DNA of 64,000 nt, from the NCBI RefSeq assembly GCF_000759775.1, contig NZ_BBMY01000009.1, positions 1-64,000 on the forward strand. Direction: 5' to 3'. A model generated the notes under the pieces. That model ran no database searches. It saw only the letters and a list, made by a program, of their open reading frames with translations, and was not told where the DNA came from. This document shows positions 32,834-40,066 of this stretch, piece by piece (position 1 is the first letter of the stretch; every line of letters starts with the position of its first letter). Made by a program: the position numbers and the translations under genes. Source of the stretch: Escherichia albertii NBRC 107761 = DSM 17582 (GTDB lineage Bacteria; Pseudomonadota; Gammaproteobacteria; Enterobacterales; Enterobacteriaceae).

Positions 32834-36248
<3,415 letters not shown>

Positions 36249-36286
36249 TTACCTCATCAATCGCTTGTCGTTATATGTTGTGTTGC

Positions 36287-36318
36287 GAACATCTATCCAT
36301 TTAGACGTCCAGATGTAA
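36287..36318. promoter_or_regulatory. MetJ operator (met boxes) upstream of metF
   Basis: Four tandem 8-mers, GAACATCT, ATCCATTT, AGACGTCC and AGATGTAA, match the AGACGTCT met-box consensus to different degrees, with the third nearly perfect. They sit in the metF promoter region. MetJ with S-adenosylmethionine binds such arrays cooperatively. Confidence 0.85.
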
Positions 36319-36596
36319 AGATGAAGGAAAAGCCGAGGAGCGTCAACCAAAAAATGGGCAATGATGGTGAGGAAAAATCAGAGAAGATGAGAAAAATTCA
36401 GGATGCAGGCCAAAATCCCTCGTAATAGAAACGCCAGGATATGTTCTTTTATTAAGATAATTATTTATCTAATTACTCCCCTATTCATAGGCACAACGTA
36501 TGTTAAACCGTGAGATTTTAAGATTATATCAATAGTCACTCTCATATGGATAATGATAGCTTGATAGCGTCAAACTATTTTCTGGAAGAATAACCC
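36319..36596 (+). promoter_or_regulatory. Upstream region of the FGE-like gene
   Basis: About 280 bases of increasingly A/T-rich DNA between the metF met boxes and the inserted gene. TATGTTAAACC, TTAAGATTATATCAATAG and GATAATGATAGC (36498-36563) offer possible promoter elements, and GGAAGAA before the ATG at 36597 is a ribosome-binding site. The left junction of the insertion probably falls near 36420, where the base composition changes. No operator was recognised. Confidence 0.4.
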
Positions 36597-37571
36597 ATGT
36601 ACCTTAATACTCAAACTCAGTACAATAAGTTAAATAAAGATGAAAAGAAAAATTTATTACTGCAAAAGCTGGCATCTCTAACAGACTTTACTTTTGACAG
36701 AATAGAGACATTCTCCGCATTTGGGCAATCTACTGAAACGGGTATTTTTAAGTATAAAGATGGCAGTGAGTTTGTTGTTGTCCCCGGAGATATAGCAATA
36801 TTAGGTTGGGACGCCAGCCTTAATGATATGGATGACCAAACAAAACAAGAATTTGAGGAGATGTTCGAACCAGAAAAATTAAATTTGAATAATTATCTCA
36901 CTGATTCTTGCACACCTGTCAGAAAAGTCATTATTTCTCCAATGCTCGTTGAAAGAAACGTGCACGCTAAACTAAGCTGGAAAGAGGTTTCTCTGACTGA
37001 CTCTCGCATCACAGAAAATCATATGTTACAAGAATTTCTATCTGATTACATGAAGAAAACTAACCCTGGGATTCACGAATTAAATGACACGTTGAAATTA
37101 CAATATAAAGATGAAAGATTATTGGTACATATCTATGAAATAATCAGTTATCAGGAGTTGATTCAAGAAATACAAAAATCAGGCTTTGATCTTCCTGGAG
37201 AAGATGAGTGGGAATATTTATGTGGAGGCGGCTCCAGAACACTCTGGCGTTGGGGAAATAGCTTCGATTATAAAATGAAAATCCCTTTTATAACATCAGA
37301 AGAACCTACAACCTGGGATATAGAATGGCCGAATCAATTTGGATTGAAGATCGCGTTCAACCCCTATATTCAGGAAATCATTAATGACAAAGATACTCTT
37401 TTGAAAGGTGGCGATGGTGGATGTAATCTCTGCGGGGGAGCCAATATTGCATTAGGTTTCTTACCGGTAGCGACGTATTATAAAGGATACAACAAACATA
37501 CAGATGAATTAGATTATATAAACGACATTGGCGGAAATTATACGTCTTATCGCCGGATAATTCGGTTGTAA
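36597..37571 (+). CDS. Divergent formylglycine-generating-enzyme-like (SUMF/FGE-fold) protein
   Basis: 324-residue cytoplasmic protein, no signal peptide or membrane segment. I recognise only remote FGE-domain signatures, in the right order: FVVVPGDIAILGWD (59-72) like the opening FVxIPGGxFxMG; RKVIISPMLVER (109-120) like the strand before the EVT motif; GFDLPGEDEWEYLCGGGSRTLWRWGN (196-221, given here as GFDLPGEDEWEY then WRWGN) like RLPTEAEWEYA...PWGN; NQFGLKIAF (246-254) like NxFGLYDM; LLKGGDGGCNLCGG (268-281) like RGGSW; and YRRIIRL at the end like GFRLVR. The GNVWEW motif and the usual copper-site cysteines are degraded, so classical formylglycine-generating activity is doubtful; a binding role is possible. 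A/T-rich codon use unlike its neighbours points to horizontal transfer. Confidence 0.8.
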   Translation: MYLNTQTQYNKLNKDEKKNLLLQKLASLTDFTFDRIETFSAFGQSTETGIFKYKDGSEFVVVPGDIAILGWDASLNDMDDQTKQEFEEMFEPEKLNLNNYLTDSCTPVRKVIISPMLVERNVHAKLSWKEVSLTDSRITENHMLQEFLSDYMKKTNPGIHELNDTLKLQYKDERLLVHIYEIISYQELIQEIQKSGFDLPGEDEWEYLCGGGSRTLWRWGNSFDYKMKIPFITSEEPTTWDIEWPNQFGLKIAFNPYIQEIINDKDTLLKGGDGGCNLCGGANIALGFLPVATYYKGYNKHTDELDYINDIGGNYTSYRRIIRL

Positions 37572-37633
37572 ATGGGAACATAATAAACAAATAAAATAAG
37601 GAGCTAACTTCCGCTAACTCCTTATTAAAGATT

Positions 37634-40066
37634 TTAAAGCAACTGCGCCAGACGATTAATATCCGACTGAATCGCCCCGGCGGTGACGTCGCGCCCTGCG
37701 CCAGGTCCGCGGATCACCAACGGATTATCGCGATACCAGCGGCTTTCGATGGCGAAGACGTTATCGCATGGCAGCAGTGATGCCAGCGGATGGTCTTCAC
37801 GCACGGCTTCCACACCAACACGCGCTTTGCCGTTGGCATCAAAACGCGCCACGTAGCGCAGCACCAGCCCCATTTCGCGGGCCGCTTCCAGTCGTTGCAC
37901 CATCTGCTCGTTCAGTTCATCGCCGTTCTCAAAGAAGTGATCGATGCTACCGCCTTCGCAATGGGCTGGCACAAGCGACTCCACGCGCACCTGGTCCGGT
38001 TCGATATCGTAACCTGCTTCACGCGCCAGAATCACCAGCTTGCGCATCACGTCTTTGCCGGAAAGGTCATCACGCGGGTCAGGCTCGGTTAAGCCCTGCT
38101 GCCATGCCTGATCCACCAGTTCGGTAAACGGTACGCTGCCGTCGAATTGCAGGAACAGCCAGGAGAGCGTGCCGGAGAAGATCCCGCTGATCGACAAAAT
38201 AGTATCGCCACTGTCGATCAGATCGCGCACGGTGTGGTTGATCGGTAAACCTGCACCGACGGTGGCGTTATACAACCAGTGACGCCCGGTTTTTTCGAAC
38301 GCGTCGTGGATCTGGCGATATTTGTTGCTGTCGCTCGCTCCCGCCAGCTTGTTGGCACTGATGACGTGGAAACCGTGGCTGGCGAAATCGAGGTATTGAT
38401 CTGCCAATTGCTGACTGGCAGTAACATCCAGCACCACTAAATCATCATACGGATGGGCACACATCCACAGGAACAGTGACTCTTCATCCTGCTCAACAGC
38501 CTCATCATTGAAGAAGGCTAACGCGCGGCTGGCGTCCAGTCCTTCATAGCTCAGCAGACTACGGCGGCTGTCCACCACACCTGCCAGCACAAATTCAAAT
38601 CCGGTACGCGCAGAGAGCGTGCTCTGTTCACGAGCGAACAGCTCCAGCCAGCGGGAACCGATATTGCCTTTGCCGAACAGCACCAGACCGATGCGTTTTT
38701 CCGCGCGGAAGACGGACTGATGTAGCCCCTGAATCAGACTTGCGGTCGGACCGGTGCGCAGTACCGCCACCAGACTGATACCGTCATCCGACTGCCAGGT
38801 AAATTCGACCGGCTGACCTTTCAGTTGCTGCCAGAAACGGTGGCAATGCAGCGGATTACGGGTGACCCCTGCCCCAACCATCGCCACCAACGCCAGCCCC
38901 TGACGCAAACGCAGTTCGCCAGGTAATCCTGCTTCGTCGAGGATTTTCAGTGCACTGTCGGCGACTTCTGAGGTGTAGCAAAATTGCAGCAACTGGCGGT
39001 CGTTGTGTACGCCCACTGCCAGTGGACGTACCTGCGCGCGTTTCAGGATCTGGTCGATTTCTTTATGCGCCAGTTTGAAATCCTGGCTGGCTGGCACCTG
39101 AAACTCAATCAAACAGACATCATCATGACTGGTAACAATACGCGCGCCAGTACCGGAGGCCAGCACACGTTCAATGCGCGTGGAGCCTTGATCCGGCGTG
39201 TAGCTACAGCGCAGTTGCAGATCGATTTCGCTGCCAGAAACGGGCTGTAAGGTACGGGCATGAAGAACGGGGGCCGCCAGACGCGCCAGTTCGCTGGCTT
39301 CATCAAGACGCAGCAACGGCAGCAGGCAAGCATCTTTCACTTTACGCGGGTCGGCACTATATACCCCGGCAACATCGCTCCAGATGGTTACGCGGGAAAC
39401 GCCCGCCAGCGCACCGATTTGCGTTGCCGAATAGTCGGAACCGTTGCGCCCCAGCAGCACCGTTTCCCCCGCATTGTTGCGGCTGATAAACCCGGTCACC
39501 ACCAGACGTTTGCCCGGATGTTGCACCAATAATTGTTGCAGCAACGGATAAGAAAGCCCTTCATCAACCTGTGGTTGCGCGGCGCGTTCAGCGCGTAAAA
39601 ATTCGCGGGCATCAAGCCAGGTCGCAGGCAGTCCTTGTTGGTTAAGTACCGCAGACATCAGGCGCGCCGACCACACTTCACCGTGCCCCACCACTTCTGC
39701 ATATACCGCGTCAGTGATACCGCTGTCGAGCAGCGCCGCCAGGCGCTCAAGATCGCTGACAAAGGCGCTAATGAGGCTATCGGCTTCTTCGGCGGGTAAC
39801 AGGCCGCTAATCAGATCGCACTGATAACGACGTAATGTTTGTTGAACCTGATGCGCAGAGAGACGATCGGTCTGGCTGAGTTTCAACCAGTTAATCAACT
39901 GGTTAGTGGTGCTACCGGCGGCAGAAACCACCATCATATCGTCGGGCTGAGAGTACTCCGCCATAATGCCCGCGACGCGTAAATAACACTTCACATCAGC
40001 CAGACTACTGCCACCAAATTTATGCAGTTGACGACCTTTCGCCCCTGCCTGCGCAATCACACTCAT
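37634..40066 (-). CDS. metL: Bifunctional aspartokinase/homoserine dehydrogenase II MetL
   Basis: 810-residue fusion. The N-terminal aspartokinase (about 1-290, KFGGSSLADV at 17-26) starts the aspartate pathway; a degenerate regulatory linker follows; the C-terminal homoserine dehydrogenase (from about 455, Rossmann loop VLFGKGNIGSRWLELF, and ISANKLAG, GIFSGTLSWLF) reduces aspartate semialdehyde. Unlike ThrA and LysC this isozyme is not feedback-inhibited but is repressed through MetJ. Two bases separate it from metB, making the metBL operon. It converges with the inserted FGE-like gene. Confidence 0.98.
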   Translation of the reverse strand: MSVIAQAGAKGRQLHKFGGSSLADVKCYLRVAGIMAEYSQPDDMMVVSAAGSTTNQLINWLKLSQTDRLSAHQVQQTLRRYQCDLISGLLPAEEADSLISAFVSDLERLAALLDSGITDAVYAEVVGHGEVWSARLMSAVLNQQGLPATWLDAREFLRAERAAQPQVDEGLSYPLLQQLLVQHPGKRLVVTGFISRNNAGETVLLGRNGSDYSATQIGALAGVSRVTIWSDVAGVYSADPRKVKDACLLPLLRLDEASELARLAAPVLHARTLQPVSGSEIDLQLRCSYTPDQGSTRIERVLASGTGARIVTSHDDVCLIEFQVPASQDFKLAHKEIDQILKRAQVRPLAVGVHNDRQLLQFCYTSEVADSALKILDEAGLPGELRLRQGLALVAMVGAGVTRNPLHCHRFWQQLKGQPVEFTWQSDDGISLVAVLRTGPTASLIQGLHQSVFRAEKRIGLVLFGKGNIGSRWLELFAREQSTLSARTGFEFVLAGVVDSRRSLLSYEGLDASRALAFFNDEAVEQDEESLFLWMCAHPYDDLVVLDVTASQQLADQYLDFASHGFHVISANKLAGASDSNKYRQIHDAFEKTGRHWLYNATVGAGLPINHTVRDLIDSGDTILSISGIFSGTLSWLFLQFDGSVPFTELVDQAWQQGLTEPDPRDDLSGKDVMRKLVILAREAGYDIEPDQVRVESLVPAHCEGGSIDHFFENGDELNEQMVQRLEAAREMGLVLRYVARFDANGKARVGVEAVREDHPLASLLPCDNVFAIESRWYRDNPLVIRGPGAGRDVTAGAIQSDINRLAQLL

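Follow-up and report, generated by a model that had tools for sequence, protein, structure and literature searches.

A stand-alone FGE-fold gene between metF and metL of Escherichia albertii, predicted to encode an orphan immunity protein

The gene and the variable metF-metL gap

The window analysed here, a stretch of 64,000 nucleotides from Escherichia albertii NBRC 107761, carries at 36597..37571 of the forward strand an intact open reading frame (ORF) of 324 codons with an ATG start. Based on the ORF, family comparison, a structural model and fold matches, it is described as the gene for an FGE-fold protein of 324 aa, a predicted orphan immunity protein. The gene is flanked by metF on the left (35355..36245) and metL on the right (37634..40066), both delineated as ORFs, named from E. 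coli records and located on the opposite (minus) strand. As had been indicated in the initial annotation, the base composition of the gene is foreign and poor in G+C, with 36% versus 51% for the window, and the third codon positions reach 34%. When window positions 36000-37900 were compared by blastn with E. coli 1190, homology stopped at 36405 and restarted at 37634; the intervening stretch (36406..37633) is missing from the metF-metL gap of that genome, where ~190 bp of other sequence occupy its place. A terminator-like inverted repeat lies 3' of metL, between the convergent genes (37595..37626, minus strand), but the call is weak, with 1 found versus 0.8 expected from shuffled sequences, and the promoter scan returned 0 hits versus 5.2 expected from shuffles. 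No signal peptide was seen by eye in the window protein.

The gene had been described as an insertion inside the methionine regulon. It does lie between metF and metL, not only in the window but also in strains MOD1-EC7003 and 2013C-4282 and in Superficieibacter, and in one more genome (G009), metF is found to the left of the gene, with the fetched stretch ending short of metL. Nevertheless, the position in the gap is no evidence for regulon membership, and outside Enterobacteriaceae, no tie of the gene to metF or metL was seen. The gap itself (window 36246-37633; L073, L074, L075, L076, L004 and L014) varies in Escherichia and Superficieibacter, being nearly empty or filled with nucleotidase/tsx genes, a PTS-LacI set, or MocR-alanine racemase-SHMT genes. 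In E. coli 1190, for instance, it measures 350 bp and contains one short annotated ORF; nucleotidase genes fill it in other genomes. The gap of E. coli 2013C-4282 encompasses the FGE-like gene, a MocR-type regulator, alanine racemase and a broken serine hydroxymethyltransferase (SHMT) gene (the latter three at L076:13057-16845, near metF), followed by nucleotidases and tsx, whereas in G009, the same MocR-type regulator precedes unnamed ORFs of matching size. The MocR-alanine racemase-SHMT set by metF is possibly a one-carbon or amino-acid module.

Distribution and evolution of the family

A scan of genome contigs yielded 69 loci, or 68 after removal of L072, the protein of which (L088) was taken as an ordinary FGE; L003 and L004 are one and the same locus. 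The 68-locus set includes members from Chitinophaga, Paenibacillus, Brevibacillus, Cohnella, Lachnospiraceae, Oscillospiraceae, termite-gut and other MAGs, Listeria costaricensis, Superficieibacter, Micropruina and one Escherichia. The family is sporadic, single-gene and cross-phylum, and no general recurrent partner gene was found across its neighbourhoods, in agreement with the initial view of a stand-alone accessory gene. The gene is not unique to the window genome: three of 12 genomes of Escherichia species carry it, and outside those three, it was not found among the 147 relatives searched. The only carrier among 295 genomes drawn from the host's bacterial family is that of the window itself, and a distant-mode search of 5426 E. 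coli genomes recovered a single copy, in 2013C-4282, with 81.7% identity; a megablast search of E. coli genomes returned no match because the copies are too divergent.

In a tree of 56 sequences, group A (31 rows) includes the Escherichia gene and group B (25 rows) consists of gut Clostridia and a soil MAG; the position of Escherichia inside subfamily A comes without firm support, and L035, L063 and L036 form long branches. The alignments of 45 and 56 rows omit broken, short or redundant members. Of the 69 loci, L064 is short and at least three are split, namely, those of Superficieibacter electus (L014:5971-6977), L. costaricensis (L005:5968-6962) and an Oscillospiraceae MAG (L033:5959-6929), in which decay and sequencing error could not be told apart.

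All four Escherichia copies examined have open frames. The dN/dS of the window copy against the three others is 0.07-0.10, and among those three, 0.16-0.22. For the pair formed by the window and 2013C-4282 copies, dN/dS is 0.07 with a dS of 1.2, compared to a metF dS of 0.49, but the ratio is rough given that dS above 1 nears saturation. From these sequence comparisons, the Escherichia gene appears to be constrained and yet more diverged than its flank. The same values bear on whether the gene could be a passenger that currently does nothing for Escherichia and has persisted in the variable metF-metL gap by chance. Rare presence and the split copies in Superficieibacter, Listeria and the Oscillospiraceae MAG would fit such a passenger, but the four open copies and the low dN/dS, both of the window copy and among the other three, make it highly improbable, and we reject decaying junk, at least in Escherichia.

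We also considered more familiar classes of accessory genes. A phage gene was rejected, as the gene had no match in 50,697 phage records and none of 7 pattern matches in viral contigs was confirmed; a plasmid gene was rejected, with a match in only 1 of 72,556 plasmid records (Subdoligranulum); and a known defence protein was rejected, given that PADLOC assigned 0 families to the window protein.

Fold and conserved residues of the protein

The FGE motifs originally quoted are present in the translation of the ORF, and the relationship to FGE exceeds chance. The window protein matches the Pfam FGE-sulfatase family (PF03781) with E=0.0024 and 18 bits, under the 23.3-bit gathering cut-off, and 37 of the 56 family members produce such a match at E<=0.01; conversely, the family profile retrieved human FGE with E=7e-8 over ~50 residues. 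NCBIfam returned 0 families at its cut-off, and neither a Pfam nor an NCBIfam model names the window protein at its cut-off.

The AlphaFold2 model of the protein is confident (pLDDT 90.4, pTM 0.89). In a Foldseek search with this model, the first 48 rows were FGE-, EgtB-, ToxD- or CalU17-type proteins, with best E-values of ~1e-5. The TM-scores by query length were 0.27-0.41 and the rmsd was ~9-12, so that the overall superposition on FGE-fold structures is loose. By VIA-align, 160-195 residues of the model could be aligned with PvdO (Z 11.8, rmsd 3.7, 184 aligned), S. coelicolor FGE (Z 11.6, rmsd 3.2, 164 aligned), TvpA (Z 11.6) and CalU17 (Z 11.3). Z-scores of 11-12 combined with Foldseek TM-scores below 0.5 imply that the core is FGE-like, whereas the remainder of the protein departs from it. 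The model thus retains the FGE-like core anticipated in the initial annotation, and the window protein is assigned, on the strength of the predicted structure, to the FGE/C-type-lectin-like fold of the FGE-fold superfamily.

The alignment of 56 sequences contains 20 invariant columns, among them E202 to C209, N246, K270, D273 and R319. The hallmark of the FGE fold, aligned with human FGE, is found at codons 200-221 (PGEDEWEYLCGGGSRTLWRWGN; 37194..37259, plus strand), where E202 to C209 are invariant in 56/56 relatives. Codons 245-261 (PNQFGLKIAFNPYIQEI; 37329..37379, plus strand) correspond, on visual comparison with L084 and L088, to the N.FGL.D...GNVWEW site of classical FGE. As had been noticed originally, GNVWEW, which is kept in L084 and L088, is absent; throughout the family, FGLxIAxxPYxxE stands at the same place. 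Codons 270-282 (KGGDGGCNLCGGA; 37404..37442, plus strand), positioned visually via the RGG/KGG anchor, correspond to the RGGS...CxxxxC segment of classical FGE. The classical FGE of a Gemmataceae genome (L084) has GNVWEW as well as RGGS followed by two cysteines in CxxxxC spacing, whereas the family counterpart is KGGDGG with a CxxC at residues 276-279. The hhalign comparison with classical FGEs covered model columns 197-255 only (probability 96%, E=2e-9); farther towards the C-terminus, the comparison was made by eye, with CxxxxC read in one classical FGE, L084.

In classical FGE, the two-cysteine site is a copper centre. The C-terminal CxxC that the initial annotation had singled out does exist, and the protein may still bind copper, but C276 is present in only 40/56 relatives versus 54/56 for C279, and the two-cysteine site is therefore not conserved in the family. 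Pair loss is not peculiar to this family, as another FGE-sulfatase match, L087, also lacks the pair. Taken together, the disappearance of GNVWEW, the replacement of CxxxxC by CxxC and the loss of the first cysteine in 16/56 sequences make FGE chemistry unlikely, and the differences in motifs and cysteine spacing led us to reject identification of the protein as a classical FGE.

An alternative is an FGE-fold enzyme with a chemistry of its own, in which C209, C279, N246, K270, D273 and R319 would form an active site acting on a protein or small molecule, and which would spread as a stand-alone activity. It is favoured mainly by how strongly the sequence is conserved and by its fixed cysteines, with 20 invariant columns across phyla, C209 in 56/56 and C279 in 54/56 sequences, along with the low dN/dS of the window copy against the three Escherichia copies. 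The genes that follow the 2013C-4282 copy (MocR-type regulator, alanine racemase, SHMT), and the similar arrangement in G009, would fit too. However, most of the invariant residues map to motifs that are structural in this fold, C209 also occurs in human FGE, L087 and L088, the cysteine spacing is unlike that of a classical FGE, with the first cysteine lost in part of the family, and the MocR gene is found in just 1 of 12 Escherichia genomes. We accordingly regard such an enzyme as unlikely, albeit a serious alternative.

Gene neighbourhoods and a candidate immunity role

At 19 loci, a total of 20 neighbours were scanned individually. Three of them contain named immunity domains, namely, SUKH-1 with LRR (L057), Imm33 with DUF1266 (L055) and Imm51, along with Imm26 just below the cut-off (L038). 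Two others carry LRR with a weak DUF2262 match (L035) and DUF4253 (L010), whereas the remainder comprises 11 ordinary proteins and 4 without any match. In addition, Imm5 is encoded two genes upstream of the FGE-like gene in L048, and the second copy in G189 (L078) adjoins a SuFu gene, with transposase genes on the opposite side. Two one-strand arrays, one with the gene (L081) and the other with a gene remnant (L080), include 7 SUKH-1, 2 SUKH-4, 1 ankyrin and 1 LRR proteins among the 32 proteins scanned. In these long immunity-type arrays of gut Clostridia (L080:1-19900 and L081:1-19900), several of the genes may represent unnamed immunity families.

SUKH genes are located within 10 kb of the gene in at least 7 of 34 genomes versus 1.1 expected (P=5e-5), one of the seven (G178) being counted via a 40-residue gene remnant with stops. 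After related contexts were collapsed, the figure is at least 4 of 31 versus 0.88 expected (P=0.009). The 34 genomes are a subset of the 45 reached, with Chitinophaga, Listeria, Superficieibacter and some others omitted. The control family, ROK (230 copies versus 212 for SUKH), showed 0 occurrences within 10 kb among the rows listed, as judged by eye, and is a weak control because just 0.98 were expected. DUF1266 is near the gene in 1 of 34 genomes, G180, where it is the L055 neighbour mentioned above.

The association is confined to part of the family. The tally for subfamily A, that of the Escherichia gene, covered 81 of 102 listed candidate neighbours from 20 loci, and that for subfamily B, 83 of 95. 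Among the 25 of 127 families listed for A, there is one LRR_8 and one DUF4253 but no Imm or SUKH family, and no SUKH gene is listed within 10 kb in the Paenibacillaceae genomes. For B, SUKH was found in 2 neighbours and LRR in 2, among the 25 of 142 families listed. Membership of polyimmunity loci was seen for some of subfamily B, whereas the subfamily A tally is without it. Single Chitinophaga copies adjoin a beta-lactamase-family gene (L023:4859-5929) and a streptomycin adenylyltransferase gene (L026:5035-5892), neighbours which look like chance.

Orphan immunity genes, by definition, have no adjacent toxin. By eye, no toxin gene was recognized among the ORFs at metF-metL or in the annotation of E. 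coli 2013C-4282, and none beside any member among the neighbours scanned, with 25 families listed in each subfamily tally.

Part of the neighbourhoods point in another direction. In G172 and G174, the gene is sandwiched between DUF5682 and VWA_CoxE genes, the clusters spanning L048:496-8331 and L044:50-6993 of related gut Clostridia, and in L041, it is followed by an AAA gene and by another whose VWA_CoxE match stays below the cut-off. Such contexts would suit a C-type-lectin-like, ligand-binding module serving phage defence or some other conflict system. The match of the model to TvpA (Z 11.6) would suit it too, as would the precedent of FGS domains, which PMC7159879 presents as effectors of MoxR-vWA conflict systems. 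However, DUF5682 is encoded in 31 of the 34 genomes and adjoins the gene in G172 and G174 only, so that neither it nor VWA emerges as a general partner, and the placement may represent one event given that the L044 and L048 copies are sisters in the tree. With no PADLOC match, no phage record and no confirmed viral contig, this kind of module appears improbable.

The explanation we favour, while holding it as a tentative one, is that the gene product acts as an orphan immunity protein, that is, a cytoplasmic protein with a non-classical FGE fold which neutralizes a toxin of rivals. Competing bacteria would deliver the toxin into the cytoplasm of the Escherichia cell, where the FGE-fold protein would neutralize it, most likely through binding. 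Toxin binding is our inference, and a cytoplasmic site of toxin action is suggested by the lack of a signal peptide visible by eye. The Escherichia gene would have to keep, across 30-36% identity, the role that the neighbourhoods of its distant relatives suggest by analogy. This reading is consistent with the FGE-like fold, lost catalytic motifs, sporadic distribution, purifying selection and immunity arrays of subfamily B, and there is a precedent by analogy: according to its title, the report of Lopez et al. 2021 (J Bacteriol, doi 10.1128/JB.00281-21) presents FGE-like proteins as a widespread T6SS immunity family. Judging by that title, immunity proteins built on an FGE-like fold have already been reported and our reading is not new in kind; the initial annotation missed both this precedent and the immunity neighbourhoods of the relatives. 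On the opposite side, subfamily A neighbours are ordinary, no toxin was recognized in the scanned neighbours, the Escherichia gene adjoins metabolic genes, the FGE fold is also used by enzymes and ligand binders, and 20 invariant columns in 56 sequences are, in our judgement, unusual for an immunity protein.

The unusual conservation makes the family a candidate for immunity that works via a fixed pocket. The family could even be an undescribed cross-phylum, stand-alone group of FGE-fold proteins that protect enzymatically, with C209, C279 and the invariant pocket reversing or pre-empting the modification made by a toxin rather than merely binding the toxin itself. We consider this version quite improbable; if true, it would explain both the high conservation and lone-gene action in very different hosts, and the gene would be the more interesting should the conserved pocket prove enzymatic. 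If the orphan immunity reading is correct, a family whose window member is unnamed by Pfam and NCBIfam at their cut-offs would gain a testable role, and FGE-like immunity would reach beyond T6SS, taking in stand-alone genes of Bacillota, Bacteroidota and Escherichia.

Our literature search found nothing on the FGE-like family itself, but related settings have been described. In Stenotrophomonas rhizophila, an FGE-fold gene is placed within a cluster of T6SS immunity genes (PMC13340143), FGS domains are reported near bacterial gasdermins (PMC9612521), gut bacteria are described as having SUKH immunity proteins of the orphan type that protect through tight binding (PMC12247911), and polyimmunity loci are depicted as mostly lacking toxin genes (Zhang 2012, PMC3482391), the scanned portion of the last containing no FGE terms.

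With SUKH, SuFu, Imm5, Imm33, Imm51 and LRR proteins of polyimmunity loci, the family shares neighbourhoods in some gut-Clostridia relatives; however, these are unrelated families, and the association is found in subfamily B rather than in that of Escherichia. The FGE-like T6SS immunity proteins, going by the title of Lopez et al. 2021, share with the window protein an FGE-like fold, which in their case serves immunity, whereas no effector gene was recognized beside the window gene.

Compared with SUMF1/FGE (PF03781), the window protein has the same fold and the LPTE-EWEY..GG..WG hallmark but differs in the missing GNVWEW, the CxxC in place of CxxxxC, the non-conserved first cysteine and the sub-cut-off Pfam score. 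PvdO and CalU17 are among its structural matches (Z 11.8 and 11.3), although identity in the aligned part is 17-18%, and both belong to biosynthetic settings of a kind not seen around the FGE-like family. Finally, TvpA of Treponema denticola and the FGS domains of diversity-generating systems represent the same fold class (Z 11.6 for TvpA), but in contrast to these hypervariable proteins, the sequence of the window family is strongly conserved.
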